From Dacryopinax spathularia (lineage: Eukaryota; Basidiomycota; Dacrymycetes; Dacrymycetales; Dacrymycetaceae): a stretch of DNA of 64,000 nucleotides. Both the position numbers and the translations under genes were made by a program. The notes beneath the pieces are model-generated. The model searched no databases. It was not told the origin of the DNA and was given only the letters and a program-made list of their open reading frames with translations. This document shows positions 24,942 through 44,987 of the stretch, one piece after another. Numbering within the stretch: the stretch's first letter is position 1; every line of letters starts with the position of its first letter. The stretch covers positions 930,001 through 994,000 of the forward strand of contig JBBPFI010000007.1 of NCBI GenBank assembly GCA_037974965.1. The letters run 5' to 3'.

Positions 24942-26966
24942 TCAGCCAACTCGCTCAACCCGATACCGCTCCCAGCTCGGATACGCAAACGACTCTTCCT
25001 TTTTCGTATCGGGCATCACCAAGCTCACCGGGACAGTAAGGATCGTGAGCTTCGTATGGTCAAATTCGTCCAGCTCGAACGGCACATCTGGGCCTGTCTT
25101 CGCTGGTGCCGCGGGCAGGGGGCGAGTATGGATGGCCGAAGCGGAAGTAGAAGCGTGTGCGCACGAGCCTGAGCAGCCGGGGCAGTACACTCCCTCCGCT
25201 TGCGCATGCGCGGCGGAACGTCGCTCGAGTACGGGGAGGAGGGCGTCGAGCGCTTCTTGCGCCTCGCGATTGTTCGGCTGTACACTGAGGAGTGTACGCA
25301 AGTCCCTCGCGGCGCCCTGAGGCTTGCCTTGCATCCTACGCGCTTTCGCGCGTCGCCAGAGAGCCTTGATCCCCATTGGGTGCTGCCGTAGTGAATGCGT
25401 GCAGAGGCGTTCTGCCGCAGCCCAGTCGCCGAGCTGGAGATAGGCTTGCGCGGCGTTCAGTTTGTAGTGCGGGATCTCGGGCTCGATGCTGTCCGCCGCG
25501 AGGTAGTACTCGATTGCGATAGCATATTTGCCGAGTTTGTATGCGGTGTTGCCCTGCCCATTATGCGTCAGCCACCGGTTTAAGAAAAAGGAGAGGGAGA
25601 CTAACCAGCTCCTTCTCCCGCTCAGCTTTCAGATACCGCCACTCCATCTGCTCGCCCATCGTCATCTGCTCCTCCCAGTCTTCGCTATCCTCCATCCCAC
25701 CCAGATCGAGGCTCTTCTCCCACATATCCTCCTCATCTTTCGTCCCCCAGCCATGTACGCCCCCACCTCGCCCGTCCCATTCCTTCTCTTTCCCTTTCTC
25801 TCTTCTTGGTGGATCCCCGCACTCCGTCCCGTCCGCATGCACGTGCGTGTGGCCGATGGCAGCCCGGTCCTTCGACGCTGCTTTTGCTAACGCTTTCTCC
25901 CGCTGAGCTTCGTCCTCCCTCACGGTCCTCTCGCACACCTCGCCCAAATGTTCCGTGCTGCACCCACAATCGCACCAGTTCCTCAGCTTCTGCTTGAGCA
26001 CCACCCCATACCCCCTCGGATCGAACTCCCGCACAACGCTCCATAGCGTATCCACCATCCTCTCATACCCCAGAGCGGCCTTCTCCTCCCACCCCATCCA
26101 CGGAGGGGAGATCTCCTGCACTGTCAAGGTGCTCAAATACGCCAGATCCTCGTTCTCCAGTGGAGAAAGCACAGATCGCAGTCGATCGATCAACGCTTTG
26201 GGCGTGTACTTGCCCTTAAACGCAGGCGGAGCAAAAGCAGGCGCGGGCTGATAGTTGAGGGACTTGACATACGCCTGCAGAGCCGAAAGGTGCGGTAGCA
26301 AGCGATACGATTGCAATCCATGATCTCCCGAAGGACATATATGCACGTCGTTGCTCAGCGCCTGAGGACAATGAGCAATATCACAACCCGTCCGGCCGAG
26401 GGACGCACAAAATGCCTCAGACTCGTATAGCTCCACTCTAGGCTGCGCGGGGCGACTCTCTCGCCCGCTTGCCTGAGATCCATAGCCACCACACCTCGGA
26501 GAAAGTCCTTCACTGACTCATCACGCGCGTGTACTGCGCACCACCCCGGGCTTCCGGCGGTGAGGATCATACGCTCCATTATCTTCGGCAGGTACTTCCG
26601 GGCGACATTATCGATATGCACCGAGAACAGTCGTGCAATATCTTGCTCATACCGCAGTAACAGGAGGTGAGCGATGAGCGCCTCCAGCTCCGGCGTGCTC
26701 GTAGTAGGACTCCTCGGAACAGAAGGCGGCAAACTCCAAACAGGCAGCGGACGCGCCCTCTTCCCTTGTCTACGTTTCTTGCGAACCAGAGTATTAGGAG
26801 CAGAGGGGAGAGCAGCCATGTAAGGCACAGCTACGGGCATTACAGAGTCTCTGCCTGCCAGTAAAGTCGATGTATGCGCCTGTGTTGGCGGCGAGCGAGT
26901 GCTGGTGGTCGTCGTTGTGTGGGAGTGCGTGGAGCGATGATGGGCTGATGGGCCGGATTGCCGCAT
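24942..26966 (-). CDS. TPR-repeat protein of unknown function
   Basis: Three exons (26966-26409, 26361-25606, 25553-24942) give 641 residues, or 599 if translation starts at the second ATG, 26840. The N-terminal two thirds match no family I know. They include a cysteine cluster (NWCDCGCSTEHLGEVC) and HTHVHADGTEC. From about residue 440 there are TPR-like helices (GNTAYKLGKYAIAIEYYLAA, AAQAYLQLGDWAAAERLC, ALWRRAKARRMQGKPQGAA), as in Hsp70/Hsp90 co-chaperones and FKBP/TTC4 proteins. A second short cysteine motif (YCPGCSGSC) follows. A chaperone adaptor role is inferred from the TPR type only. Confidence 0.65.
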
Positions 26967-27121
26967 CCTCTCCTGCGGAGAGGACGCTCAGGAATCCGGG
27001 CAAATGTTCTGGATCTGCACAGATCCAGAACAGGGTCTGTAAAGCTGTGCCGATTTCATTCTCAGCTTTGCTCCCATTTGCATCCGGGCCTCCGCGTCGA
27101 GGGCTGCAGGACCCTGGTCCT
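26967..27121. repeat. Cluster of three perfect palindromes at the left edge of the island
   Basis: Three unrelated inverted repeats lie within 155 bp just upstream of the TPR gene. The first has arms CCTCTC/GAGAGG around a 5-nt centre (about 26967-26983). The second has 12-bp arms GTTCTGGATCTG and CAGATCCAGAAC around CA (27006-27031). The third is AGGACC-CT-GGTCCT (27108-27121). They could be operator sites for the TPR gene or a boundary of the accessory region that starts here. Confidence 0.5.
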
Positions 27122-27274
27122 ATTCAGTGAGAGTGCGCGCGGGTGACAATGGCATTGTATTAGTTAGTAAATAGAGATAGTAATGAACAAAAGTTTGTTA
27201 GAAAACTAAACAAGCTACCAAAAAACAAACCAACAAAACTGGAACAAGCAGGGAGCCAAGTCGCGCTCAGCCAA

Positions 27275-29501
27275 TTAGATATCACCCTCTACCTTGAGGT
27301 GGGCAATCGCCCTCCCTTTCCCTTTTCTGTCTCCCCCTCCTCCCCTCGCACCCCTCCCCCCAACACCTTTCACTTTCCCGTCCACTGCACACTCAGCGTC
27401 CCCCCGTCCCCCTTTGGAACCCCCTTGCAACTCTCCCAGTTGACGCCTCGCCTTCTCGTTCTTCTCGACCTCTCGTGCCTCCCTGCGAAAGTCCGCCCAC
27501 TTCCTCTCCGGGTTCACACGGTATACCGCGTTCAGCTCCTCCAACCCCGGCTTATGAAGTAGGCTCGTATGCTCCCAGTACGTCTTGTAGACCGCTGGCA
27601 TGCCGTAGTGCTCTTCGAAGGCAGCTTCAAGGGCGGCTATACCCCGACCGGCACCCCGTCCCTTCGACGAAGAGATCTTTGTATGGCCACGAACAATGTC
27701 GCCGTAGCTCCTATTGCCTGGCCATTTCCCATCCATTGTGTGCTTCTTGGGCCAGCTGAGCTTCGCCATGGGTGGAGACAAGGGCGAGGAAGGTGCTTGA
27801 CCAGCCTGCGACAGAGAATACGATGGCGGGGACGATGTGAGATCCCACGTCTCGATTTCCACCTTAGGAACACGACTAGCGGGAGGATCCGGGGATCCCG
27901 TGAGGTCGAGGTCAGTGAAGGGCGAGGGCCATCGTCCCTCACCCTCTACCTCCACTTTCGCCATGCACCCATCCTGCCAGTCATCCTCCACGTATCCCTT
28001 CAGGGCCCGCTTGTTGATCACTAACCAAGGTGACATGTCACGTAGCGGCTCTGTGGCTTGCTCCGAAGCCCGCGACCTCTTGACAACAGACTGTTTCGGA
28101 GATTCGAGAGTGGGTGACATTGACCTGGGCCGTTTCGCGCCCCGCCGATCATCCTTCACCACAAACGGCACCACCTTCCGCATCTCCTCCTCCATCTGCT
28201 CGCTCACTCCCACATCAGGCAGCCGAGCCAGCAAGCGTTCTCCCTTGTGGATCAAGCGAACCGTCTCCCGCCCGTACAAGTCCCAGCGGCCTTCGTCCGC
28301 ATTGAACAGACGAAGGAAGCGCACTTCCTCCCCCAACGCGGCCTTCACATGGCTGGGCCAATCGTCCACCCGAGTGGAAAGACCGGAGGATGTGGCCAGT
28401 GCCAGGAGATTCGGGAAAACCTCAGGAGCCCTCTCCGTCTATGTCCGATGGATGTCAGTAAGTGTCTGCGGACTTCGCATGTAACAGACGCACCCCAGCA
28501 AAAACCACCAGTGTGAACATCCGTTGAATCTGCTCCTCCCGCTCCCGAATCTGCTCTGCCTCAGCCAATTGACGGGCGTGGCCCTCTGCCCAAGTAGGCT
28601 TCATCGCTCGGTAAGCCCCACGTCGTTCGACTGAGCCACCCATGGCCCTACGCTTGCTTGGGCTGGCGGTCGCTTGCCTGGCAGACCCGGTCGCCTTTGG
28701 AACAACCTCAAACCCATCCCCTTCCCCTTGAGCGTCCCCAGCGGGAACCTCATCACCTCCCGGTGCAGTTTGGGCCCCCACAACCTCCATCTCCTCATCC
28801 TCATGCCGTCCCGCTTCCCCTTCACTCTCCCCCCAACCCGGCTCCTCGTGAGCTCCACTCCCTCCTTCCCCTCCTTGCTGGACAACAAGCCCGGGTGTTC
28901 CTCCACGGGCTGGTCGAGGTTCTCCATGCACATCACAACCCGCAATCAACCCGTGGTGTTGAGCAATCGGTAGGCTGGTGCAGCAGGCCTTACACCATTG
29001 CTTCTGGCATGAGCGATGGGCTCGATGCCCGCAAGCGCCGCAACGGGCTTGCGCACGCTGGTGGGGCTTCTTGGGCGTCGCACTCCCCACACTCGGTGTA
29101 CCGGGAGGAAAGTCAGGTTGAACATCTCGAAAGTCGTGCCTCAATGTGCGGATGTCGTCTGCATGCAGCTGTTCACTGTGCCAAGTGATGACGGGGTGCG
29201 TGCTTTGGTGGGAGTTGACGGAGGACGAGGGGTGGTGGCCGAAGCACTGTAACGAAGTCAGCCCAGGACATGACCCCCTATGACAAGGGCCGCATACCCT
29301 AGAGAACAGGCGACCATAATTTGCTGGCTCCTGGTTTTGGCGGTTCATGCAAACCAGAACCTGGTTCCGTTTGCCGCACTTCCGACATGGCTGCTTAGCG
29401 GCAGGGGAGGCCTTGGACTGCCCCGTGGACTTGCTGCGCTCATTGTAGAGGTGGACAACATCCCTCACCGCGTAGGGTGCCCTCAGGACGCTCCCGACCA
29501 T
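27275..29501 (-). CDS. GRF-like zinc-finger protein of the island
   Basis: Exons 29501-29298, 29246-28494 and 28438-27275 encode 706 residues. The first intron is 51 nt, in frame and stop-free, so it could be retained. Splicing joins CRKCGKRNQVLVC...NYGRLFSR to CFGHH, which restores a pattern like the GRF zinc finger (C-x2-CG...N-x-GR-x-F-x-x-C). A second cysteine-rich cluster at about 137-172 (CGACGHRAH, CKACCTSLP, CDVHG) resembles clusters in basidiomycete transposon-borne proteins. The rest is acidic or basic low complexity plus a conserved-looking helical part (ALEAAFEEHYGMPAVYKTYW). Function is unknown; nucleic-acid binding is inferred from the zinc-finger pattern. Confidence 0.6.
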
Positions 29502-29709
29502 GATCAGGGCGGTGGTCGTCGTGTAGCCGCTAAAGGGGGTGGGGGTGGGGAGAGGCCCTCTTGAATATTGCTCGACCGGTTTTTTCACTGGGGCCCTATC
29601 ATCGTCAGCCGATCATTTACCTTAAAAGGAAATTATGGTTGCTGGCCGATCCACATAACCCTCACGGGTTGCTAACCACGTCAGCGGCTTGGGCACAACG
29701 GGGTGGACA

Positions 29710-32633
29710 TTACGAATCTATGCTACATACTTCAGCTACGGAATCCACAGAAATACGTCGTGGTCGCGGTCGCAGAGCCGTCCGAGCAGCCCGAGCCTCA
29801 GCGTCCGGATCCAGCGGCAGCGAGCAAGCGTGGGCATACATCCACTTCCTGAACCGCTTGACTTGGGCCGGCTGGAGGGAGGACGCGTCCTTGCCCTTCA
29901 GGATAGCCAGCGCGTGCAGAATCACCCAGGCACCGCAGTCGATGCTGTTGCCCTGAAGCACAACCTGGTCAACCGTCAGCGACACGCATACAACAGAGCA
30001 GGTCAACTTGCCTGAACGCGAGACACTTCCCAGCCAGCAAAATCAGTCTCCCACGCTAAGCCATGTTCTATTTTGGCCACGGTCTGAGCCGCGCGTATGA
30101 TACGAATAACCTGCTGTGCACTATGTCAATCCTAGACAAGGTAGGGATTGCTCAGCACATACCCACGCCACCTGAGGCCAGTTTCTCCACATCAAGGAAT
30201 CGTACACCCAAATCGTCTTGTGCAGGAAATTCACACGAACTAAGGTGAAGTGTCCGTCGGACAACACAGGGAACAGCATGTGGCCATGTTCCCAGCACGC
30301 CACGGATCGCCTTGCCTCTTCCCGCTCCACGTCGCCAGAGGGGAAACAATTGTTGGCGAAGAAGCTGTTGCGGTACCATGTCTTGAAATCCTTGTGGGCA
30401 GAGGGTCGATAGGCCCAATCGTCGATGACTGGCTTCGGGACTGGCTTCGGGAACGTTGTGTAAGCCCTGGTCAGCATCACGATGGCTACCGGGGCTTGAG
30501 GCACAACGGGTTCTTCGACGGGCCAGCCAGCGCAGCTCAACTGCAAGATGTCATCCACGACGAAGTTGGTGAGCATCTTGTCAGTGTGGAACAGGCGGAC
30601 GATAGTCCCTCCTGGGACGGACACAACCCCCCGAATGCCTCGGAACAGCCGGTCAATGCTGGAGCCATTTTGGCGACAGTGCTTAATCGAGGGAGGGGAC
30701 CAGTCATCATAACGAGAGGGCGGCTGACCAGTGGGTGAGCAACAGCAAGGATCACACTAGAGGGCTAGCTTACCACAATAATATCGACGTTGGCAACCTT
30801 GCAACCCATCTGCATGAGTCGCGTCGCAAATGGATGCGGTCGAACGACTGGCAGGGACGGCGGTGGGTGAAAGACCGCGTCGTCTAACGCGAACTTGGCC
30901 AGGGTGGGGTCGGCGAGGACAGGATCGTCCATAGGGTCGTATGCGCCCCGATCCTGGCGGATGACTTCACCCACCGAAGGAAGGCTGTCCACGCTTGCCT
31001 GCCGTTGGAAGGGAGCGGCCGGATGGGACGCAACTACAGGCGACCCTGGTGAAGCAGCGGTGGCCGGGCTGAACGGCGTGAGAGGAGGATGGGTGTACAC
31101 ATCCTCCTCCACGATCATCACCTCATCCTCATCCTCTGAGGGTAATCCCTCGGCGGTGTCATCCTGGGGTGGTTGTCCCTCTGGGGTCCACCGCCCCGCC
31201 GGAGTGGAGGATGAGTCCCCTCGGCGACTGGGCGAACCAGAAGCTATGACGGGTTCCCTCGGCGTACAAACCACCCTGGCCGGCTCAGGACAGGCCTCCT
31301 CGGGGACCTGCGGGGGAGACAGTGGAGGATGGGAGGGCCGCGGGGAATAGCGCGGTGAGCGCGACGTGTCCTCACGACGATCACCTTGCCGTAGGTCACG
31401 TCGAGGGGCTCCGTGGGACGAGCCATGACGCGATCGGCTGAGTCGCGACGAGCGGCGGTCACCATCATAGCCATAGCTGGGCGCGGAGGTCGCATAACTG
31501 CGACTGAATTGGCTGCTGGTCGGGCTGGACGATCGGCGACTCCTGTAACGACGACTTACAGGAGACGGGCTACGATAACGACCTGGACGAGGGGACCAGT
31601 GTTGGGCGCGCCGGAGGTAAGGTGAGGGGGATCGGCGTCGCGTGGAGACGGGTGGTGGAGTCCGCCTCCCACGGTCAGGGAAGGCACGGGGTCGGGCAGC
31701 AGCATACTCTCGAGGTTGGACGGGAGGTGACCTTTCTCGTCGAACATGCGCTGACCCTGATGGGGCGGAGGGTGCGGGTGCAGCGGCAGGCGCGGGGACA
31801 GCGGCAGGCGCGGGGACAGGGGCGAGGGCCGCGGCTCCCATCTCCATCATGCGCTCGGGGAGGAGATGGACGACAGTGGGGTACCGAGCAAAGCAGGCGG
31901 CCCAGCCGGGTGCTATGGTCCAGGCAGCAGCGGGGCGCCCAACGAGCCATTCCACCATTCCCGAGGGAATGAATGGAGGCCACACGAAGTTGGGCAGGTC
32001 ATGCCGTGACGACGCTGAGAGGGTGATGAAGCAGCCGTCACCAGCATCCCAATCGTCGGGGTGCGGGAAAAAGCGCCATAGGGACATCTGCAAACCGTCC
32101 TCCCAGTTACGCACCACCTGCCGGCGCTCGTGGGTGAGCCAATTGAGCGAGGGATGGAGCGCGATGGTGCGGGTGCACTCAGCAAAGGCTTGTTGGTACT
32201 TTGTGAGTTCCTGCAACGCGAACTCCCGACGCGCTAGGTGCAGCCCGAGCTGTTCCATGGCTCTTGGCCGGTCAGACATCGCCGGGTCGCCCGTAATGAA
32301 GGAAAGACCTATAAAATATGATAAGTGGCCAATCGTACAAGCACGGGTCAGAGATCGCTCACCATCTTGAAACAGCTTTTCCCGGCAATACAGTTGCCAG
32401 CAGATGAGGACCTCCTGCCTCTCGTAGCAGGTGAGTGTGCGGTCCAGGATGTCGTTATAAAATTGCTGGCGGCGATGGCGACGATCAGTCGAGCGGCTCT
32501 TCTCCCCGAGGTGCGCGGGCACCCAAATCGGCGGCAGTCCGACCTCGAGCAGTCGGCTCGGAAGGTCTTTCGACAGGGGGAACTGCTTGTTACCGGCGAG
32601 GTTGATGCCTGGAGCAATGCGAGCCTCAGGCAT
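29710..32633 (-). CDS. Large protein with C-terminal Ulp1-like (C48) cysteine protease domain
   Basis: Five exons (32633-32363, 32308-30774, 30723-30163, 30113-30012, 29964-29710) join in phase into 907 residues. The fourth intron uses a GC donor (GCAAGT). The middle is an Arg/Ser/Pro-rich stretch (about 330-480). The C-terminal domain shows the Ulp1 order: His760 in SDGHFTLV, Asp777 in VYDSL, Gln827 and Cys833 in LQGNSIDCGAW. Ulp1-family enzymes cleave SUMO or similar tags. Copies associated with fungal and animal mobile elements are common, but their substrates are mostly unknown. The ATG lies 24 bp from a palindrome array that must include its promoter. All four catalytic positions are present, so the enzyme may be active. 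Confidence 0.75.
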
Positions 32634-32656
32634 GACGATGTGGACGGGGTGGGGCG

Positions 32657-33156
32657 CAAGTACCGAGAGCGGTGGCTTGCGCAGATGGAGAGGGGTGGGA
32701 GGAGATGAGCACAAGTACCGAGCACGGTGGCTTGCGCAGATGGAGAGGGGTGGGAGGAGATGAGCACAAGTACCGAGCACGGTGGCTTGCGCAGAAGGAA
32801 GGGGAGTCAAACGGATGGATGGGTCCAAGTACCGAGAGCGGTGGCTTGTCCCTGCCTAACGTGTAGGCACAATTGGAGGTAAGGTTGCGGCACCGTGAGC
32901 GGTAACCGTAACGTCGCTGGGAGCAGGAGGAGGAGGAGACAAGTACCGAGCGCGGTGACCTGTTCCTAGAAGGGATGAATCAAGTACCGAGCACGGTGAC
33001 TTGTCTGGCCAGAAGGGGGAGGAGCAAGTACCGAGTACGGTGACTTGTTTGTCGCAGTAAGCCCGCTTGTGGGCCCTCGAGACGGAGAGGTGGAGCTTCA
33101 GCGCCGACTTGCGCGCAAGTCGATTCCTACACCTGCTGTACCTTGGACAAAGGTAC
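32657..33156. repeat. Palindrome array 1 (eight CCG-N4-CGG boxes) upstream of the Ulp1-like gene
   Basis: Boxes begin at 32657, 32712, 32767, 32826, about 32888, 32940, 32981 and 33025. Most are 23 bp: arm CAAGTA, core CCG-N4-CGG, then arm TGGCTTG or TGACTTG. The first three are spaced exactly 55 bp apart as a tandem repeat. Beyond them lie a perfect 18-bp palindrome CGACTTGCGCGCAAGTCG (33105-33122) and the palindrome GTACCTTGGACAAAGGTAC (33138-33156). Bases 32829-33115 are about 90% identical to array 2. The core is the everted zinc-cluster geometry known for Leu3. Transposase binding sites are the alternative. Confidence 0.85.
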
Positions 33157-33618
33157 TTGCAAGGCGAGGAGGGGAGGGGAGGTTATATGGTCCGGCAGAG
33201 GTGGTGAGAGGAGGAGGAGGAGGGGCTGGGGCTGGTAGACGAGGAGGAGGTGGTCGAGGAGGTGATGGTGGTGAGGTGGTGGTGGGAGGTCGACGACGAG
33301 AGGCAAGAAGACGACGAGGAGGCAGAGTAGTTTGCTTCCGCTTGTTTAGGGTCTCATCGGGACTATTCAATTCACGTGCTTCATCGACAGGGTCCATTCC
33401 AGCCGGCGCATAATGTAGTATTTAATTATAATTAAATTACCATTGTAATTGTATTATAATAATGCATCTGTCGGTGCAGGGGACGGGGCTGGGGGGGGGG
33501 GGACGGAAACAGGCCAGGGTGATTTACCAATTTGACGATGCACATGCACGGCGCAAGATGGACATATGCTCCATTATCTCATGTACTGACTACAGGTTCA
33601 GTGCGGTATTCACTTGGC
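33157..33618. other. Spacer with AT-rich palindrome and G-run
   Basis: A GGA/GGT-rich stretch (33175-33320) is followed by an abrupt AT-rich segment at about 33411-33465. This contains the perfect 16-bp palindrome TTTAATTATAATTAAA (33421-33436). A run of twelve or more G follows near 33490-33502. A minus-strand ATG at 33397 opens a Pro/Arg-rich frame into array 1; it could be an upstream exon of the Ulp1-like gene but has no supporting motif. Confidence 0.4.
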
Positions 33619-35280
33619 CTAATCGTCCTCGGGCAATCCACCGATGCTCTTCTCGACGAGCTGGACCTTCTGCTTCAAGTCCTGCATCGTCTTCTTTTGC
33701 TCCCTGGTCAGCCCAACCGCGTCCTCCAGCCAAAGCCCGATGTCGTTTTTGAGGATGCTCGTCTCCAGCTGCGCGGTGTTCCGGACGGGCTGCCTTTGCA
33801 CACGTATGATGCCTTCTTCAAGCAGCACCACAGCGCGGTCAAAGTCTGGCTTCAAGACAGCCTTCAGGCCGGTGTGGATGGAGAGACTGAATGTCAGCAC
33901 CATGTGCCAATCGTCGGGTCCAATGACAAGCGCAGGACAGTCACTCGTGCGCACGAGCACGTACTCCAGCTCCCGAAGCTCCTTGATGACGTTCGCGTGC
34001 CACAGATGCGCGCGAGCTTCCTTGTCGTCTGGTAAGAGGTGGGCGCGGTTGTGGGCGTTGTCCGGCGCAAAGATCCACAGCTTGTAGGGGCCAACACCTG
34101 GCATATCGGCATGGACGGTGGCAAACCGACTCCCATAGCCATCGCGGTGCCAGCCGCTGACGGTCCCACCTGGGCACACGATGGTGTTACCGTACAGCTC
34201 GTTCTTCTTGCCTCTCTTCCATTCACGCGGTCGCCGAAATTGGCATTGGAGCATGCCTGCATCCGACGGAGGGATCTCGAATGCGGCGACCTGCGGAATG
34301 GGTGAGCCTCCCTGACGGCCCATCCCGTGGATGATCAAGCTCTGGAGAATCTCGGGGACCGAAAGGCCGTATTGTTCGCCCGTCTCCGGTTCATTGACGG
34401 CCAGCTCGCGTGTGGGGCCCATCTCCATGAGATCGGCGACGACCAGCGCCAATCCCGGTTGTCCTGGGGACTTGCTGGCAAGGAAGTCACCAACCGGGTT
34501 CGTCGTCTTCGGCTTGATCTCGGCCGGATACGCCATTAGGGCCTGGAGGATCGCATTGCCTTGATGGGCGCTGGTCCCCTCATCGCCGAACTTCTGCCTC
34601 CACTGGCGCGCCAGCTCCACAAGCCAGCCGTTGCCCATGGCACGCGCATATTCTTCAACCCCGCCCCGCTCACCGGACGGGGTCACCTCGAGGCCAGCGC
34701 TCTGTGTCGTGGGCCGGGTGCCATTGCCTGCTACAGGATCAGCATAGGCCCATGGCTGAGCGATCAGCTGGGCGCACCTTGAGCGCTCCTCTTCGGCCTC
34801 GACCCGGCTCCCACATCGTCATCCTCCGCCCTTTCCATCTTCCTTTTCCTCTCCTGCGCCTTATGGAAGGCGGCACTGGTGATCCACCGAAACCGGTCGT
34901 TGGTCGCCAAAATGCGCAGGTCGCGAGATGGGTGCTTCTCCCTGCTGGTCCCATGCCAGATCCCTGCAGACTTCCGCCAGCCATCACGGTCTTTGATCCA
35001 CAGGTCGGGATGGCGATAACTGAAGCAGAGATCGCCCTCCTCCCCCATTCCCCGAGGAGGGCTATTGCCGACCGGCCTGTTGTCCTTGGGTGTGTACACT
35101 CGGTACGAGTAGTCGCTTTGGAGCCAAACAACTTCCATGTGGACTGGGCAATCCTCAAGTGAGCTTCTGCACGTAATGACTTCTCTCAAACATAACTTAC
35201 ATTGCGTGCTTCCCATCTTCTCGAACCACAATGTTGATCCTGGGAGATGGTGGTAGCGGAGAGGAAGACGCGTCGAGCAT
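33619..35280 (-). CDS. JmjC/cupin-like putative Fe(II)/2-oxoglutarate dioxygenase
   Basis: Exons 35280-35201, 35166-34778 and 34727-33619 encode 525 residues. The C-terminal half has a JmjC-like layout: GGTVSGWHRDGYG (His350, Asp352) gives the H-x-D metal motif. LWIFAPDNAH follows where JmjC proteins have the K-x-W strand, and IGPDDWHMVLTFS (His431) supplies the distal His, preceded by a glycine-proline turn. A short Lys-rich linker (about 125-150) looks like a nuclear signal. JmjC enzymes hydroxylate or demethylate proteins, often histones. The facial triad is present, but the 2-oxoglutarate-binding Lys/Arg is not certain, so activity and substrate are unknown. A basic leucine-rich coil ends the protein. 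Confidence 0.6.
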
Positions 35281-35301
35281 GCACCCTGACCGAGGACCCT
35301 A

Positions 35302-35443
35302 TGTCAGGACGTTGTCAGCATGGAGTCAGTCAGCTGGACCCTTTGTCAGGTTTGTGTCAGTTTTGTGTCAGTTTTGTGTCAGGTTTGTGTCATGACGGAG
35401 TCAGTACTCTGCTGGGTCCCACCTCACCTAAACCTAGGTGAGG
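35302..35443. promoter_or_regulatory. TGTCAG repeats and a hairpin upstream of the JmjC-like gene
   Basis: Just upstream of the start codon, about eight copies of GTCAG occur in 110 bp, several as a roughly 11-bp tandem unit TTTGTGTCAGT (35341-35392). A perfect inver­ted repeat follows: CCTCACCTA (35422-35430), loop AACC, TAGGTGAGG (35435-35443). The position suggests promoter elements or transcription-factor sites. This promoter has none of the CCG-N4-CGG boxes seen at three neighbours. Confidence 0.5.
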
Positions 35444-35609
35444 ATCATCTTCCCTTGACAACAGACTACTCCTGCTAAGCAGCATTAGTGCCATCGCCAG
35501 GAGATATTGAGGGTGTAACCTCACAGACAGCCGTGCATGGAGACAGGGAAAGTAAGACCCAATGTTTACCAAGGAGAAACCTCAGTTACAATAGAAATTG
35601 AGTGTAAAA

Positions 35610-35915
35610 TTAGACCACCCTCTCCCCCTCCCGCTCCCCAGCCCTCACACCAGCCGCCTCCCGCAACTCTCTCCACTTTTGCTGGATGGCAATCAGGCGC
35701 TCCAGCACGTTCTCCAGTGCGAGCAGGCCGACTCCGATGATGGCGATTATCTCGTTGGCCTGGCCTATGAGTGACTTCAGGCGATCGAACGAAGGGGTCA
35801 TCCCCCAGATGAGCTGCTATAAGGTGAGGAAGGCAGTAGAAAATGCGGACAGACTCACCTTGATCAAGGCCCAAGTACCCTGGAACCCGCTGGCGAACGT
35901 GCCCCAGATCTGCAT
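35610..35915 (-). CDS. Small hydrophobic hypothetical protein
   Basis: Two exons (35915-35859, 35816-35610) join in phase across a 42-bp GTGAGT...TAG intron into 87 residues. The middle, NEIIAIIGVGLLALENVLERL, is hydrophobic enough for one membrane segment or an amphipathic coil. The end is Arg/Glu-rich. The reading frame is open further upstream without an ATG, so extra 5' exons are possible. No family recognised. Confidence 0.35.
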
Positions 35916-36451
35916 GGTGGTGGCGGGCGTGCTGGAGGAGAGAGGGAGGCCGAGCGAGGGATAAGTGCGAATGCTCGGGACGGGTAGCAGACCCAATCGG
36001 TCTCGAAGTGTAATGCAACGATTTGCTAAGACTGCTGCCACGCCCGCTAATGCCGTTGCCGCTGTTGTTGTCGCTCGTTCCGTAGAGGTTGGAAAGTCGT
36101 AGATGGGACCACCGTTCGCATGGGCAGCCTAGGAGTATGAAAGCAAATTTCAATGTAATTTATCGCACGGTCTAGAGTACGGCAACAGAACAATGAACAC
36201 CTTGACGAATTAGCGTTCTGGGACCTGTTCGAAGCTTTTATCAGCGGCTGTAATATACAGAAACGGAAAAATGACGGTCATATTAGATCAAGTAAATGAC
36301 GCATGGAAAACCGTATAATGCGGTTCTCTCGCCAACCACGAATAAATCATATATGAAGTCCGCGCAACGAAGAACGTACCACCAACCTTTGGCCCGTCGC
36401 CACTGCCCCCCGAGCAGACTGCGAGTATATCGATCGGGTTTGCCTGCACGG
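35916..36451. other. Spacer between the small gene and COX18
   Basis: About 535 bp including the upstream region of the small gene and the 3' end of COX18. Several frames are open for short stretches, but none shows a motif. Around 36150-36300 it is AT-richer than its surroundings. Confidence 0.35.
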
Positions 36452-37669
36452 CTACCGGTCTCCAGTTGTTTTACCTTGCACAGGCGGAGCATCTCTTTGC
36501 GTTTGTGATGAACCACGCGCAGCGCTCCCAGCGTTTAGCCCGGCGGCTCGCTGAAGCTCACGCCGGATAGGATAAAGACTCGCCGATGGGACCACCGGTC
36601 GCATCTGCTGCTGTCTCTCATTTGCGTTCTTGCCCTCGTTCTTCAGCTCCACCGCTTTGCGCCGATCAATGGTCGCAAATGTCAGACGTTCGATGAATGT
36701 GTAGGACGCAGATGTGAGCCAATACAACACCACAGCCTGGCCCAGTTTTAGCCGTTGTCTGCGCATTCTGTAATCGCACACGTACGCCAGGCATGTTCAA
36801 CGCTATCGGAATTGTGGCAATAGCAAGACACCGGAGGGAGAACTCCAGCACAGATCGTCGCTTAGCCCAGAGGAGCGATAACAGAGATCCTGACTGACCA
36901 GCGTTGGTCGAGTTTCGCGGGTCTTGCCTATTAATCTCGATATTTGCCATAGTCATCAAACCAACGGCGATGGGCATGAGACTGGAGCTATCGGTACTGG
37001 CCAGGCTTCCGAGCGTGAGGAAGGTCTCTGTTGCGATAGGGCTTGACGGCGTTGCTGCTGCTCGAAGCATTAAGGATGCGGTGACGAATAGCGGGACGTT
37101 GGCCATCGCCGGTAGTATGGTGGTTAGCCATGGATAGGCTTGGTGCTTCGCGGCTATCTCCCTATATTTTGCTCGTATCTGGGGCTATCTCAGTTGCGCT
37201 GTACTTCATACGAGTCTGATCGTGTCACGTACTTCGTTTAGGAGTTCCCGGTTGCCATCTTCCCTGCTTTTCTCCCCTCTGGCGACCGCTTTCATGAAAT
37301 TTTCCCTCAGCAGCAAGGCTTCCTTCGAGAACTCCGGCTGAACAAGCTCTTGCAATCTTCGTGACCTCCGCCGCGCCTTGTCGTACTCGTCAATGGGTTG
37401 ATAAGAGACCATAGCTGCAAACGTACCCAGATCGCGAAGGGGAGCGTGACGGTAGTCCTTGCAAGGAGAGTGCCGACGATGATGGTGGTGGCATACGGGG
37501 GCCAACCCTCCGGGATTGGCAGGGCGTTGGCTACATGCACAAATCCATCCGCAAGAGGCTGGATAATCGGTGGGATACTGTCGAAAAAGTGCCTTCGAGG
37601 CGTCGCTGGGCGGTGGGGTCGGCTGAGGGTCAGAGCCGCTCGAGTTGCTCGTCGAGTGAGGATGAACAT
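36452..37669 (-). CDS. COX18: Mitochondrial inner-membrane insertase of the Oxa1 family, Cox18/Oxa2-like
   Basis: Exons 37669-37427, 37376-37233, 37178-36786 and 36736-36452 give 354 residues, intact through all four. The N-terminus (MFILTRRATRAALTLSRPHR) is a mitochondrial presequence. RRHFFDSIPPIIQPLADGF begins the YidC/Oxa1/Cox18 core. Membrane segments follow at TTIIVGTLLARTTVTLPFAIW, ANVPLFVTASLM, CLAIATIPIALNMPG and AVVLYWLTSASYTFIE, the order seen in the family. Cox18 exports the Cox2 C-terminal tail. All three donors are GTACGT, the host pattern, unlike the surrounding island genes. The acceptor of intron 1 appears to be AAG. Palindrome array 2 starts 62 bp upstream of the ATG. Confidence 0.85.
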
Positions 37670-37730
37670 TGCGGCCCACGGCCCGGATTGCGTCCTGCTG
37701 GTGGTAGCCGAAGACGAGGAAAAACGGGCA

Positions 37731-38101
37731 CAAGTACCGAGAGCGGTGGCTTGTCCCTGCCTAAGGTGTAGGCGCGATTGGGGGTAAGGTTGCGGCACCG
37801 TGAGCGGTAACCGTAACGTCGCTAGAAGCGAGAGGAGGGGGAGACAAGTACCGAGCGCGGTGACTTGTTCCTAGGAGGGATGAAGCCAAGTACCGAGCAC
37901 GGTGACTTGTCTGGCCAGGAGGGGGGTGGGAAGCAAGTACCGAGTACGGTGACTTGTTTGTCGAAGTTAAGCCCGCTTGTGGGCCCTCGAGACGAAGAGA
38001 TGGAGCTTGAGCGCCGACTTGCGCGCAGCGAATCCTCTAGTAATCAAGGCACCGCGATCGGCCACCTTGCTTATCACCTGCCGTACCTTGGACAAAGGTA
38101 C
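37731..38101. repeat. Palindrome array 2 (six CCG-N4-CGG boxes) upstream of COX18
   Basis: Boxes begin at 37731, about 37792, 37845, 37887, 37934 and 38045. The first five match boxes 4-8 of array 1 in order, and the DNA between them is about 90% identical too. The 18-bp palindrome of array 1 is present in degenerate form near 38015-38030. The accessory palindrome GTACCTTGGACAAAGGTAC lies at 38083-38101. Orientation toward the adjacent gene is the same as in array 1. The array fills the region where the COX18 promoter should lie. Confidence 0.85.
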
Positions 38102-38364
38102 CTGCAGGAGGAGGAGGAAGGGAGGGGGCGACGGCGAGCAGGGTGTGATAGACGTTGAGGAGCAGCAGCTTGAGTGAGTGGACCCTGACGCCTCAGCGGC
38201 ATACAGGCAAAGTCACGTGAAAAATGCGGATGCAAACGGAATCAAATCTCCTTGAAGGAGGCGCTCCTCGTCGTCTTTTCGTTCAAGCTCATCGTCTCCT
38301 CCCCCCATCCGCCGTCGTCCTGACCCCCCCGTCCCCGTCCCCGTCCCCCAACCTCCCCTCACAA

Positions 38365-38800
38365 GTACCTTTGCCCAAGGTACGGTGAGGGCGCGAGAGG
38401 TGGCCGTTCCCGGCGCTTCGAGCGATTGAGAATTCGACGCGCAAGTCGGCGCTCAAGTGACATACCCTCTCCTCTGAACCACCCGCCGTCGCCAGGCCGC
38501 CGAAGACCAAGCTTCAGTCACCGTGCACGGTACTGACTCAAGACCAACCCCCATAGGCCCTACGAGCAAGCCACCGTTCTCGGTACTTGCTCGTTTGACC
38601 CCCTTTCATCGCCGGACAAGCCACCGCTCTCGGTACTTGCCCCTGGCCCGATATCTTTCTCTGGCGAGTGGCCACCGTCCACGGTACCACTGAGCCACAT
38701 TCCACCCTTCCGAGCCGACGTGGAAGCCACCGTACTCGGTACTTGCACGCCGTTCGCCGTCATCCTCCAGCGAGTGGCCACCGTCCACGGTACCACTCGC
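38365..38800. repeat. Palindrome array 3, inverted (six CCG-N4-CGG boxes) upstream of the 683-residue gene
   Basis: This array runs in the opposite direction to arrays 1 and 2, as does its gene. The accessory palindrome comes first (38365-38383), then a CGCGCAAGTCG stretch near 38438-38450. Boxes follow at 38515, 38567, 38617, 38667, 38724 and 38770. Each has the CCG-N4-CGG core, but outer arms vary: CAAGC/ACTTG, AGTGG/CCACT, and in the last box GCGAGTGG/CCACTCGC (38770-38800). Only the palindromes are shared with the other arrays; the spacer DNA has diverged. The last box ends 99 bp before the start codon. Confidence 0.8.
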
Positions 38801-38899
38801 CTCGAATACCCTGCCGGTCTTAACGATTGGGTTGGGGCCGATCTCCACCCTTCCTCCCTTCCCACAACCACACCACTGTCTCTGGCACGTCGCCGCGCG

Positions 38900-41051
38900 A
38901 TGCCCTTCGCATCAGCCCTCACTGGACTGCGCCTGCCGGCCAAACGGGACCGTCAAAGCACAGACAGACTAGCCGTCCGTCGACCCGAAGAGTGGGAGCA
39001 GGGTGAGCCGCTTCCCCTCCTGTATGACCTGTACTGAGCTAGGCCGCAGAATACCTACAGATGAGCGAGTCTGTCCGCACCGTGGTGGATCGCCTGGAGC
39101 GACAGCTGGAACGAGAGGGTTAGTTCTTGGGTTGCCCGTGTGTCTTGTTCAGTGCTCAACATCTTGACTAGCGAATGCGATTGGCTGGAATACCGGAGAC
39201 ACCGTGGAAGCACGCCTAGGGGCTGCTGCACCTCGGCCCGCAATCAACCACGAGCCCACCTTGCTCGTGGGGCGCAAGGATGGCTACCGTGGCGGGTTGC
39301 TGTCGGTGGAACACATCCCACTTCGACGATTTGACGTGCTTCCTCGACAGCCCATCTACGCCGCCGCGGATGCCCGGCGCGTGGAGGAGCTCTGTGCGGC
39401 CATCCAGGGCCGTAGTGGGCATGCGCAGGACATCCCTTGGCAACACCGCTTCCGTGACAACGAGCTCCGAGCTCGGTCACCCCTCGATTGGACCGTATAT
39501 GTGCAGGTTTACGACCCCGCGTACCCCCATCGACCCTATTGCGAAGGTCCGCCCGACAATCCCCTCAGCGCGAAGATCCTGTGGGTCCTCCTCGTGCGAG
39601 AGGCGTTCTCCGAGAGAGGTGGAAATGGGGACGACGCCCATTTAGGCCTGGTCCATCCTCGCTGGGTTGCACACCTCCGGGCATTCACCGAGCACCTACT
39701 CTTTGTTGCGGAGGAACGGCTGAAGATCGCTCCCGATCACGCCCTTCGCCTGCGATATCGTCACCTTCGCGCGCACTGGTGCGCCATCTTCGACTGGGAC
39801 ATCTTCTTGATCCCTTTGGATTACCACGAGGCCGAACGGCTCTGGTTGTACTATCAGTGCAAGGCGCGCGACTTGCTCGGCATCGTGAACTACGTCGATT
39901 CTGCGTTTCTGCGCCAGTACCCCTTCTCATCGACGAACCGGCCATGGACGAGGAACTTCGTGGGCGTGCTCGATACTGATTTGCCTGCCGCTGTGCGTAG
40001 CCAGCTCATGCGAGACGGCGTACCTGTTTTGCGAGTGCATACATTGCCGGGCGCCCGTCCTAGGGACGAGTGCTTGACCGATGTGTGGGTGCAAGAAGAA
40101 CTTCGGAAACTGGTTGCAGCAGCCGGGGATCCGCAGACCGCGCACGCGCTTCGGTGCGACCAGATCCGCCGACCGGATGCCCTCGACGAGAGGAAGCTGA
40201 AGAACCAGGCCCGACCCGGCAAGCAGCAACGGGAGAGACTGAAGAAACTGCAGAAGCGTAAGGAGGCGGAGGTTGCACTGGACCAACGCCATCTGCTCAG
40301 CACAGAAATGCGCGATCGTCAAAAGAAGCGGAAGTCGGTCGCGGATGCGGAGGCGCTGTATACACGGAGCAGCGCATTCCCACATCCTCGGGCCTGGGAC
40401 CCCCGAAAGGGATATACTGAGGCGGCTCAGGAGGAGGCCCAGTGGCATGATTATCCAGGATATATGCCTGGAGCGGAGAACATCCGCCTGCCGTTGGTCC
40501 TGGGTCCTGGAACTACATCGGAGAGCATGGCCGGCCAGCGTCCTTCGGCGAATCCACTACCAACGCCGTTCACCCTCGCCCATCCAGGGTTCCGTGACCG
40601 TATCCCGGAGCCCTTCCGCTCCTATGCCATTGCGCAGGAGGGCCAAGGAGCTCGTGGGCCGGCGCCTCCTATGCCGCATCGACTTCAGCCTGCAGCCGAC
40701 GCTGCGAGCAAGAATTTGGCACCACCGTTGTCCAGCGACAGCTTGACCGACTGGTCTACATATGAACCGTGGCTGCCTGGACCTCCCTTGGAAGAGACCG
40801 AGGCGAAGGACGAGGGGCTGAGAAGTGGGGGGACAACTGTGGGCGGAACTCCGCTGGCATCTACAGAGTCGGTTGAGTCGACTGCACCCGCTGGTGTGGA
40901 GGTCCCACTCCAGGTTGAGGCAGCGGCGGCAGCGCCTCCGGTAGAGAAGAAGAAGCCGATCCCGCTGAAGGAGTGGCTTGCAGCCAAGCGAGCAAAGGTG
41001 GCAGCTATGGGACTGGCAACAGAGCAGCGGTCAGGGGAGGGAAGCGGGTGA
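38900..41051 (+). CDS. Island protein of 683 residues, unknown function
   Basis: Exons 38900-39002, 39050-39118 and 39172-41051 join in phase. A central globular part (about 100-330) is rich in Trp, Tyr, His and Arg, with stretches such as RAHWCAIFDWDIFLIPLDYHEAERLWLYYQC and a short Lys/Arg-rich coil at about 370-430 that could be a nuclear signal. The C-terminus is Pro/Ala-rich and ends near KEWLAAKRAKVAAMG. I recognise no catalytic motif. The gene converges on the KDZ transposase gene, with 156 bp between the stops, and carries palindrome array 3 as its promoter. That suggests it belongs to the same element system. Confidence 0.65.
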
Positions 41052-41207
41052 TGGGGCGGAGGGTTCGCCCTGTGTAGGACCACAGGAATACTTTCATATT
41101 ACATTACTGAACCAAGGGCGGGGTTGTTCTGTCACTTTCCCACTGTACTGTATTCATGTCTTCCCGCCTTTATGTGATATAGTAGTTATCCTTAGAGTGA
41201 GCTAATA

Positions 41208-43472
41208 CTAAAAAGTCGCAGCAGGCCTATTCTGCGGCATTGCTCCACGTCGTCGAAGATCTTTCACCGTTAACTCGTTTCGCGCCTTGATCACTTCATC
41301 AAGAAAGAAATCGAACCGAATGGCGGACATCTCGCGTACTTGACCTTGGTACTTCCGCAGCCAGGCATTAACTTGTTCGCACACGGATGAATTGAAGACC
41401 CAGCGCTGTTGCTCATGGTCGTAGAGCTCGGGGTATGCCGCAGGATTGCAGTGCGTGCTGCAGAAGACATCCTCCTTGCTATGTTTCGATTTGAAGTGGA
41501 AGACGTCCACTAACAGCCGCGTCTCTGCGAAGTGGGCTTCTTCTGGCCTGTCTGCAAGGTAACGCCGGAAGGAGCAGTTGTTGTCGAAGAACAACACCTC
41601 GGGCATGGACTCTACGGAGGGGAAGACGTCCATGAGGAATTGCTGTTACCATGGGTGAGTCAACCGATCGCCCGATGGATTGGAGCGCGCTTACGGCCAC
41701 TGATGATAGGGATTCGGCGCCAAAGAAGGTGCGGCGCCCGATAATGATGCCGCAGGGACGCACCACGAGCTGTTCATTGTGAGTTCGGTGTCTGCCAAAA
41801 TGTGCGCGCAGCTTGGTCTGCTTGGACGGGATGGCAGGAGGTGGCTTGCGGGTTGATTTGCTGTTGGACAGCGCTGCCGTGGTGGGCCCATCTTCCTGCA
41901 TGGGCTCGGCTCCTTCCTGACGTGGGATGTCCAGATTGCCTAGAAGAGCCTGGGCATGCTCGAGATCTTCCATCTCCCCCTCTTCGGCATCGAGCAGGTC
42001 GCCATCCTCCAGGGTGTTAGTGGTCCCCTGTGGTGCAAGCAGTCCCTCCCCTCCTCGAAGATAGGCGAGCTTGCACCTCTGCGTTAGTAGGCCGAAGGAC
42101 TTCCCCGCTGAGCGATAAGCTTCCTCCCGTGCCATATGTGCTGGCTGATCGCATGTCTGACCGTTTGCCCGCACAGGTTGACCACAGCCGTGCACCACAC
42201 AGACGGCGTTCAAATTGGCGTGCTCCATGCAGAAACGAGCCTTGGTGTGGGGCAGAGTAGACGTACAGTTGTGAACGCCACAACAGGGCCGGCCTATCGC
42301 CACACCATCGGTGACAGCGCAAGTCATGACGACTGTATGGTGAGTCAGTACGTCCTCTGATTATGCGAGTATGTGTCTGACAGGTTTGCCCGCCTTCCGT
42401 CTTGATTTTCATGCACTCATTGCATGTGTGTGCCCAATATGGTTGCCCATTGCGTGCCATATACGCGTTGCGCTCTTGCATCGCATGCTTGAGCCGTTCG
42501 GCCTGGTTCAAGGCATGGTGAGGAAGGCGAAGTTGGGTTCCCTGTTCGCTGTGATGCAGCAGGAGGGCGTACAAGTCGAAGAGGTTGGAGACCCATCGAG
42601 GATCGAGGGCTCTCGGTTGATAGGGGCCAGATATCGTGGTGGGGGGGGCGGCGAGGGCTTCGTTGTACATCTCTGCGATTGCCAAAGCAGAAGAACTAGG
42701 GAGCATTAGCTGGCAGGAGAGGGGGAAACTAGATACGCACTGAGCATGGACTGTTTGCGAGCGGAAGAGCCGGCAGAGTCGACCTTCAAAGAGTGCATGC
42801 GGCTCAGCTTGAATTACTTGGGGTTGCCCGAGATAGTAGATTCGGGTTTTAAGGCCAGGCTCTTGTTGGATGCGGTAGAAGTTGAGGTGATACGTGGTCG
42901 CGCACTCCCTACAGCGAAGGGATACCACTACTACGGGGGCAATGCCGTTGTGAAGGGTGTAGAGCGTGGCAAAGTACTGAGAGCGGAAGGTGAGGCGAGC
43001 TCGTTGGTTGGTAGCCGTGTAGTAGGAGCAGGCATCCCACATGCAGAGGCGGGTGGGGGGATACAGTGTTTCGAAGCCTGGCGTTCGGGTGAGCTTTATC
43101 TTACTGATTGAGTGGAGACTGACCCAAGTTATAAGCTTGTCCGTGGCGTGCCAGGTGGTGGAGGACGTCGCAAGTGGGCGGGGTCATCGTGGTTGGAGAT
43201 CTCGAGCGGACCCAAGCGACGTGCTTCAAGGCCGCCCACAGCACCCCAACCTGCTCAGTCGTGAGCTCCAATGACGCTGCAAGGAATGCGGAGACCGTGT
43301 TTGGCAAAGCCTGTGGTGGATCGAGGGTGGGGCCAGTGGTAATTTGCTGCCAAGCGATTCGAGTTTGCAAGTGGCGTATAAGAGCGAGAAAGTCGAGTAT
43401 CTGGGCAACAGTAATTTGTTGTAGGTAGACACGCAAATTGAAGAGAGTTTGGAGGAGTAAAAGAATAAACAT
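41208..43472 (-). CDS. KDZ-type transposase with CxC5- and CxC6-like cysteine clusters
   Basis: Exons 43472-43124, 43077-42741, 42695-42382, 42332-41695 and 41642-41208 join in phase into 690 residues with no break. The CxC5-like region includes YPPTRLCMWDAC, LRCRECATTYHLNFY and a later CNECMK. The CxC6-like region is CAVTDGVAIGRPCCGVHNC through RFCMEH and CVVHGCGQP. The C-terminal part has the KDZ signature MPEVLFFDNNC, VDVFHFKSKH, FCSTHCNPAAYPEL and FNSSVCEQVNAWL; its Asp and Glu are candidate catalytic acids (inferred). KDZ (Kyakuja-Dileera-Zisupton) are DNA transposons common in basidiomycetes. Two introns use GTCAG-type donors. The gene looks whole, so the element may be young. Confidence 0.85.
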
Positions 43473-44987
43473 ATTGACAATATGGGTGGGGCGGGGATAT
43501 GTTGAAGGTGATGGGGCTATTTGTCGTACAGTCACGTTCAGGGACAATAATATCAATGAACATGGTCCCTCGTGCTTCTGCCGACCCTGCCGCGAGAGGC
43601 TCTGCTGGAAGTATAAAGGGAGCAAAATGGAATTAAATTTGGTCTCGGTCTGTGCACTGCCACACAGAGTACAGAACATTTGCCCGGAAATCTGTATGTA
43701 CTGCCTGCGGAAGGGGGGCACTGCCTCATGGACCCCTGCAGCGTGGGCGCGTCGCGCGACTCGGGGGCTTGGTGGGCACCATGTCAACATTGCAATGTTA
43801 CCGCGACGGTACTCCCTGCCCCTCCATCCTTCGGACAATGAACCTCGTGCCCCGTGCGGAGATACGACTGATGACGTGGCAACTGCCCCGTGTCGACGCC
43901 TCACCCTTTTGTGCCGACTGCCGTTTTGTGCTGCCCTCTTCTTCAGTTACCCGTGGCACACCCCTGTGACGAGAGGGGTTGTCTCGTCACCCTTTACGGT
44001 GAAATGGAGTGAAAAAGGCGGGGTAGGATGTCTTACTACTCTCTACACACAAAGCACTTTGTGTGCCTGAAGTGACCGACACCCTGCTTCGTTGGAGGTA
44101 GTTGCAAAGGGAGCCGAGAAGGTACGTTTTCTTTCCACGCCTAGCCATCGGCAAAGTGGGGACTAACGTACCAAAGGTTCTCGGTTTGCGATCATCATAT
44201 CATGGCTCGCTGGACCGCCAACAATCCTTTGCATTCCGATGGGCGCTCGATCCTTCCTTGCCCAGCGGACGGCGACGGCTGCAGCCCATAATCTGCTATT
44301 TGAGCACTGGCAGATCAGCCTCACGACCCACCTTGATTGAGCAACTTATCATAATCCCTCCTTCACAACCCGCCCAGAACCAGCTCCCCAATCCGAGCAG
44401 CCACATCAGGTGCCCACACAGAGCGCATAAGCATGACGAGCCAGTCTTCCCAGAAAGCCGAAGTCTTCCATTTTGGTCTTCCATTCCGTCCCATCATTTC
44501 GGTAGCGGCTTGATTGCCTGTCTGCAAACAGGCAGTCAAGCTTCTCCCTTGAAGCTTCTAAAGCCGACTGTCTTTGGCCAGTGGAGGGCGGGCCGGAGCA
44601 GATCTAGAGCTGACATTCTATTCTGCCATGCTGCATGATTGGACGCACACGGCTGAAGGAGGTTTGGTTTGAATTGCATGGGAGAGAGTAGGAGGAAGGC
44701 TGCTTTGAGATACAGAACGCCCTGCGGGCATGTAACTTAATACTGTACCATGGGGAATCCTGGTGTGCTCCTCTGCCTCGCTCGAATGGTAGAGCAAGCC
44801 AGTAAAATGCATACGCCTAACGCAGGGGTTGACTATCTAGATACGGGCATAGATAGGTGCAGCAGCGCAACGCTTCGCGAGATACTGTCCGGGTTATCCA
44901 TCCAGCCGACCGTGCAGCATCAGCATGCCTGCTCAGTACGGGCCGTAGTACATGCCCTCCCAGTGACTCCGATCATCCGATCACATC
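43473..44987. other. Right flank of the island with several hairpins
   Basis: About 1.5 kb without a supported gene. Perfect inverted repeats occur at 43966-43974/43982-43990 (GTGACGAGA and TCTCGTCAC, 7-nt loop) and 44046-44054/44057-44065 (CACACAAAG and CTTTGTGTG around CA). A near-perfect pair lies at 44509-44521/44528-44540 (13-bp arms, one mismatch). One of the first two may mark the end of the KDZ element. Confidence 0.5.

Follow-up and report, generated by a model that had tools for sequence, protein, structure and literature searches.

KDZ transposons of fungi leave target duplications of 7–8 bp (PMC12730594), and for the KDZ elements of Cryptococcus duplications of 4–8 bp and inverted repeats of 139–241 bp are described (PMC12810828). 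Terminal inverted repeats occur in Zisupton and in Cryptococcus KDZ elements and are absent from Kyakuja. Cargo genes such as dioxygenases are known, according to the accessible parts of these two papers. For the repeats of two other transposons, Hermes and Galileo, binding by transposase is described or proposed in the consulted sections of PMC10368747 and PMC3573991. How the genes of multi-gene fungal transposons are controlled, and how captured host genes are equipped, is poorly known. Here we analyse 64,000 nucleotides from Dacryopinax spathularia (contig JBBPFI010000007.1, positions 930,001 to 994,000), hereafter the window, to which all box and array counts refer. An earlier note on this DNA had drawn attention to three arrays of about 20 palindromes with a CCG-N4-CGG core; the three arrays were recovered and comprise 19 boxes. 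They lie within 26980–43703, which is probably one 16.7-kb KDZ element. In our leading explanation, held tentatively, that transposon contains a repeated promoter or regulatory module of 0.4–0.5 kb, which has the arrays as its working part.

The arrays are located as follows.

32654..33050, plus strand: array L, eight boxes of 29 nt, starting at 32654, 32709, 32764, 32823, 32884, 32937, 32978 and 33022

37728..37959, plus strand: array M, five boxes at 37728, 37789, 37842, 37884 and 37931, a copy of L boxes 4–8

38511..38799, minus strand: array R, six boxes at 38511, 38564, 38614, 38665, 38720 and 38771

The strand is uniform within each array and that of R is opposite to L and M; R is a mirror image of L/M with the inner arms changed in three boxes. 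The spacing of the boxes (41–61 bp) differs between arrays, as does their number. The first three boxes of L form a plain 55-bp tandem repeat.

For comparison the boxes were aligned on a single strand, plus for L and M and minus for R. Each box is a 29-nt asymmetric hairpin and CCG-N4-CGG is its middle part. In order, a box consists of a 7-nt outer arm, T, ACCG, WGNR, CGGT, G, a purine and a second 7-nt outer arm. The outer stem of 7 bp varies in sequence between boxes. Inside it there is a T·G step in 17 boxes and a C·A step in the other two. A single unpaired purine is bulged on the 3′ side of all 19 boxes; the bulged base may be either the first or the second purine after CGGT. The two halves of the box are offset by one base, and the boxes are asymmetric and oriented, not plain palindromes. 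The loop is always (A/T)G-N-(A/G), with A (14) or T (5) at position 1, G at position 2 in every box and A (11) or G (8) at position 4. Invariant columns are G13, ACCG at 15–18, G20, CGGT at 23–26 and C29, and a 17-bp core, GTACCG-WGNR-CGGTGRC, is present in 17 of the 19 boxes. The earlier note was thus right that CCG-N4-CGG is invariant (19/19), and wrong that the four central bases are free, since they follow WGNR with a fixed G.

The arms of a box fit each other. When all boxes are compared, 92.5% of 228 cells pair in the named structure against 79.4% after shuffling, and 33 cells have both sides changed against 9.8; neither value was reached in 500 shuffles. Sliding the 3′ side by 1–3 columns reduces pairing to 26–40%. 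L boxes 4–8 are close to their M copies and L2 is close to L3, therefore the 19 boxes represent about 12 independent lineages. This kinship inflates covariation counts, and the test was repeated on 12 lineages. The arm-exchange tests use 12 or 13 of the 19 boxes, leaving out the L copies of M boxes and L3; the 12-lineage set additionally omits one of R4 and R6, and all 19 boxes were computed too. Among the 12 lineages, outer pairs 5–7 (those past CAAG/CTTG) are present in 30 of 36 cells, and exchanging arms between boxes gives 19.8 (p < 5 × 10⁻⁵). Restricting the comparison to the nine CAAG-type boxes gives 23 of 27 cells against 17.0 (p 0.0002). At outer pairs 5–7, no other arm pairs better than the box's own in 10 of 12 lineages; along the full length, the own arm is best or ties for best in 9 of 12. 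Examples are GCGAGTGG/CCACTCGC in R6, partly common to R4, GTTGCGG/CCGTAAC in L5 and its copy M2, and TCAG/CTGA in R1. The arms covary, as had been claimed, and the boxes are more than simple tandem repeats.

We also trained a paired and a sequence-only model on L and M and scored both on the six unseen R boxes. The paired model gave the higher score each time (50.1/36.1, 38.9/31.2, 28.1/25.2, 23.4/17.6, 20.7/10.7 and 16.3/11.1 bits, paired/sequence-only). R1 and R4 align over the core alone, and the score of an unrelated site (38990) improves as well, which makes the gain partly generic. A dimer with fixed half-sites explains the 17-bp core and, because the arms covary, does not explain the arms. 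The covarying arms point to a shape-dependent control signal of a mobile element and not to an ordinary switch site.

Within the window, boxes were found in the arrays only. CCG-N4-CGG occurs 48 times in the window against 28.9 (sd 5.8) expected from shuffles; 19 of these are the array boxes and the remaining 29 are at chance level. The pattern ACCG-[AT]G-N-[AG]-CGGT has exactly 19 sites, all in the arrays (20 strand hits, one site reading on either strand); 20 first-order Markov resamplings gave a mean of 0.1. A covariance model built from the boxes themselves, run with filters off over 28–46 kb, recovered all 19 at 33–51 bits, the next best match having E 0.18; with default filters it recovered 17 of the 19 in the whole window (next best E 0.7). 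By pattern and covariance model, no convincing hairpin box was found in the window outside the three arrays. We note that a stretch near 38043–38071 in module M (below) resembles a decayed box; it is missing from the list of covariance-model matches and was therefore left out of the count. A scan against Rfam at gathering level returned one tRNA and nothing else. A pattern search of viral_contigs for boxes gave no match. Fourteen bacterial records of genome_contigs hold one site each, which we attribute to chance as about 30 are expected for 17 fixed bases; 11 weak covariance-model matches up to E 1 (best 0.002) were seen in these records. Three protein queries gave 1, 3 and 2 matching stretches, none of them confirmed.

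Each array opens a module of 0.4–0.5 kb that lies 20–100 nt upstream of an inferred ATG, and each module keeps one polarity relative to its adjacent gene. The link to start codons and to KDZ genes proposed in the earlier note is borne out. The order common to the three modules is boxes, the motif TTSAGCGCCGACTTGCGCG, the palindrome GTACCTT-GGRCA-AAGGTAC and a G/A-rich tract.

33097..33115 (plus) in L, 38007–38025 in M and 38438–38456 (minus) in R: second conserved motif, TTSAGCGCCGACTTGCGCG

33138..33156 (plus) in L, 38083–38101 in M and 38365–38383 (minus) in R: third motif, the palindrome GTACCTT-GGRCA-AAGGTAC

37726..38137, plus strand: module M, partner of module R in an inverted repeat (below)

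38332..38799, minus strand: module R, upstream of gene 3 (ATG at about 38900, plus strand)

Modules L and M terminate in GGAGG-type tracts, and module R in five to six blocks of G that resemble a G-quadruplex (38324–38358, minus strand). Aligned in a block of 297 columns, L and M are 92% alike, and the likeness stops at the module limits. Judged by their sequences, L and M are recent copies and R is older. Within the aligned block, substitutions between L and M are rarer in the hairpins: 2 of 142 hairpin sites are changed against 16 of 150 other sites (Fisher p 0.0010), and in a wider cut 4 of 145 against 25 of 211 (p 0.0015). M and R together form an imperfect inverted repeat (37845–38137 against 38332–38639) whose arms measure about 300 bp and are separated by about 200 bp.

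The modules are enclosed by the candidate element, whose parts are listed here.

26980..43703, 16,724 bp: candidate complete KDZ element, enclosing all three arrays

26972..26979 (plus) and 43704–43711: exact 8-bp direct repeat CCTGCGGA

41208..43472, minus strand: KDZ-type transposase gene; its ATG (43472, placed by eye) is 231 bp in from the right end

The 8-bp repeat stands in register with an inverted pair at 26980/43703. The inverted ends are imperfect, 25 of the first 36 bases matching, 17 of them in a row. They are the best among 46,473 position pairs in the window that have an identical 8-bp direct repeat and lie at least 3 kb apart; the next best pair matches at 21 of 36. The pair corresponds to an inverted match at 26995/43688, 45 nt at 71%, among the 25 longest of 54 pairs. 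The transposase gene has matches to the cysteine clusters CxC5 (3.1e-23) and CxC6 (1.3e-23). The assignment as a KDZ element is probable and not certain because it rests on this single copy. The arrays lie 4.9–5.7 kb or more inside its ends. Because the 8-bp duplication is in register with 26980/43703, we regard them as internal modules and not transposon ends; their interpretation as terminal modules or subterminal repeats was rejected. A 41-nt inverted match at 5033/43997 (85%), which encloses the KDZ gene, was also considered as an element end and set aside, having no flanking direct repeat; its copies are 5033–5073 and 43997–44035, the right one just outside the candidate element. The left end of the element is a few bases upstream of an ATG of a minus-strand open reading frame (ORF, 26355–26987), and so the element may have inserted immediately upstream of a host gene.

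Three genes adjoin the arrays. Start codons and introns were placed by eye, and the start codons were confirmed as ATG.

29710..32633, minus strand: gene 1 and Ulp1-like (C48) protease exons, inferred ATG at 32633, 20 nt from box L1

36452..37669, minus strand: COX18/Oxa1-like gene, ATG at 37669, 58 nt from box M1

38900..41051, plus strand: gene 3, inferred ATG at 38900, 100 nt from box R6

Gene 1 leads into the C48 exons, which give a Pfam match of 2e-6 when spliced by eye. The introns of the COX18/Oxa1-like gene are about 41–52 nt, again by eye; introns this short, together with KDZ genes, would suggest a basidiomycete. No Pfam family matched gene 3. A further ORF inside the candidate element, 33619–34818 on the minus strand with an upstream exon perhaps within 34764–35303, shows by eye an HxD...H arrangement like that of JmjC/2-oxoglutarate dioxygenases. 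It had no Pfam match and no usable structure prediction. A dioxygenase-like ORF in the element would recall the capture of TET/JBP by KDZ elements. Just upstream of its inferred start, an 11-bp unit, TGTCAGGTTTG, is present in 4.5 copies at 35344–35392, a further array near a start codon. Structures predicted for ORFs of 399 and 627 residues were unusable (mean predicted local distance difference test, pLDDT, 41 and 40). Elsewhere in the window there is a direct duplication (19516–20364 and 22943–23718, 73–78% identity) and a pair of diverged direct repeats (48280–50151 and 54753–56077, 66–76% identity). The first copy of the latter covers a carboxylesterase match, and the pair are probably paralogous genes.

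With these genes in place the tentatively favoured explanation can be described. A protein encoded by the element, or a host factor, would bind many boxes jointly, and the bound arrays would control gene 1/Ulp1, gene 3 and a presumably captured COX18-like gene. The fixed top of the box would be the part recognised, and the variable arms would need just to fold back. The COX18-like gene, which would be cargo, may have received a copy of the gene-1 module, from L to M or in reverse; the L/M pair has the appearance of a promoter module duplicated at a cargo gene. Several observations weigh against this explanation. The inverted ends, at 25 of 36, are just 3 above the best of 12 Markov controls over the tested ranges (17–22 of 36), come from one copy and are far shorter than the 139–241 bp of the Cryptococcus elements. 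The KDZ domain itself matches at E 0.047, below its cut-off, and the COX18-like protein matches 60KD_IMP at 6e-6, under the family cut-off. No array of boxes stands at the start of the KDZ gene itself. Two of the five covariation measures computed are unexceptional, namely pairs with change on both sides (6 against 4.8, equalled in 111 of 500 shuffles) and further pair types (17 against 14.2, 39 of 500). At pairs 5–7 a foreign arm fits better than the box's own in 2 of 12 lineages; with the whole arm counted, this is so in 3 of 12. No further copy of the module was found in the collections searched, viral_contigs and genome_contigs.

It is possible, though we consider it rather unlikely, that the boxes work as RNA stem-loops. 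The purine-rich strand of the arrays would be transcribed away from the genes as divergent non-coding RNA, and its (A/U)GNR tetraloops would be recognised by a Rnt1-type RNase III or another RNA-binding protein. In a wider form, held to be just as unlikely, the KDZ element would control its own genes and a captured mitochondrial-type gene through hairpins read by protein as single strands, either divergent nascent RNA or displaced DNA, the reader being RNase III-like or element-encoded. The invariant loop G, preceded by A in 14 boxes and U in 5, is as in the A/UGNN tetraloop described for yeast Rnt1 in the accessible part of PMC13183374. The covarying arms and the fixed bulge also speak for it. 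The covariance model is one-sided, scoring 33–51 bits on one strand and at most 12 on the other. Both the letters of the loop and the T-A/T-G alternative at the bulge speak for the purine-rich strand, and so do RNA energies in 13 of the 19 boxes (mean −12.1 against −10.8). DNA energies point the other way, the sense strand being better in 6 of 19, and a count of five G-T against two A-C is indecisive. Folding gives a similar picture: L and R, the two arrays compared, fold better than shuffles (z −3.1 and −4.7), but so do their opposite strands (z −6.6 and −3.8). The choice of strand by energies is contradictory. The spacers between boxes are 63–78% purine on the hairpin strand. CT-rich upstream regions are common in fungal promoters, and the purine skew also fits these; over the 300 bp upstream of the three array genes pyrimidine makes up 0.61–0.67 of the gene strand, against 0.42–0.61 ahead of the first ATGs of 13 other ORFs, which speaks for the promoter modules. 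Rnt1 cuts 14/16 nt from the loop, beyond the 12-bp bulged stem of the boxes, and pairing past 12 bp is no better than chance (43 of 95 against 37.1, p 0.07). The known targets of Rnt1 are RNAs and not transposon-promoter arrays, so far as the source extends. If RNA is the form in which the boxes act, transposon promoters would be connected with processing by RNase III.

The earlier note had pointed out that everted CCG triplets four bases apart have the geometry of Leu3 sites. This is correct, as CCG-N4-CGG is the Leu3/LeuB consensus in the accessible text of PMC6221358, and a host regulator of this kind, or another dimer, might control the three adjacent genes, with the arms incidental. The core in all 19 boxes, its 17-bp extension in 17 and the position of the arrays near three inferred ATGs with one polarity would suit such a regulator. 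Its binding does not account for arms that fit their own partner, for halves offset by one base or for fixed spacer letters including the G. There is no helical phasing of the boxes in 11 spacings (best R value 0.32). The six reading frames of the window gave no match to a simple Zn2Cys6 pattern. Outside the arrays, bare CCG-N4-CGG occurs at chance level, and all three arrays are within the candidate transposon. We judge such a host regulator improbable; that a dimeric zinc-cluster site, as had been suggested, explains the arms is not supported.

More doubtful still is a nested mobile module, in which M–R, about 1.1 kb long, would be a non-autonomous element of the fold-back type, or the module on its own would be the mobile unit, inserted within the larger element. 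The inverted repeat formed by M and R would be natural here, as would an L–M likeness bounded by the module limits, and the accessible part of PMC3573991 describes internally repeated inverted repeats in Galileo and Foldback. No exact direct repeat of at least 6 bp flanks M–R, though 149 of 300 random placements had one; the direct-repeat matches based on L are G-rich and have no control of their own, and the interior of the repeats is not common to L and M–R. It is very unlikely that the boxes are neutral palindromes, a short repeat multiplied in tandem (as the 55-bp tandem of L1–L3 would allow) with arms kept symmetric by fold-back template switching, because such switching should erase the bulge and the T-G step, kept in 19 and 17 of 19 boxes, and because, between L and M, substitutions are fewer at hairpin sites than elsewhere.

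Literature searches, mostly of records without full texts, returned no paper on such hairpin-box arrays, and a search with the letters of the box, judged likewise without full texts, returned only unrelated papers. Each of the known systems shares some of the features of this locus. Leu3/LeuB sites have the CCG-N4-CGG core, and the accessible text of PMC6221358 makes no mention of conserved spacer letters, a bulge or fold-back arms. Sites with covarying arms are a testable signal separating recognition of sequence from recognition of shape. In maize MuDR, repeated modules act as promoters of the element's genes (PMC3440606, accessible part); the MuDR modules are the element ends, whereas here they are internal. 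The subterminal repeats of Hermes (hAT) and the internal repeats of Galileo are oriented arrays of short repeats, some of them quasi-palindromes (PMC10368747, PMC3573991). These repeats are at the element ends and the accessible sections mention no covarying hairpin units. MuDR, Hermes and Galileo are therefore partial analogues only, their repeats being terminal. The KDZ transposons of fungi resemble the present element in their CxC clusters with a KDZ-type transposase and in their 8-bp duplication (PMC12730594, PMC12810828, accessible parts). Promoter arrays of hairpin boxes are unmentioned in those parts, and the sole occurrence of 'palindrom' in that of PMC12730594 concerns the ends of captured genes. 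The Dacryopinax element differs from these relatives in such arrays, in its size of 16.7 kb, in its COX18-like cargo gene and in its short, imperfect inverted ends.

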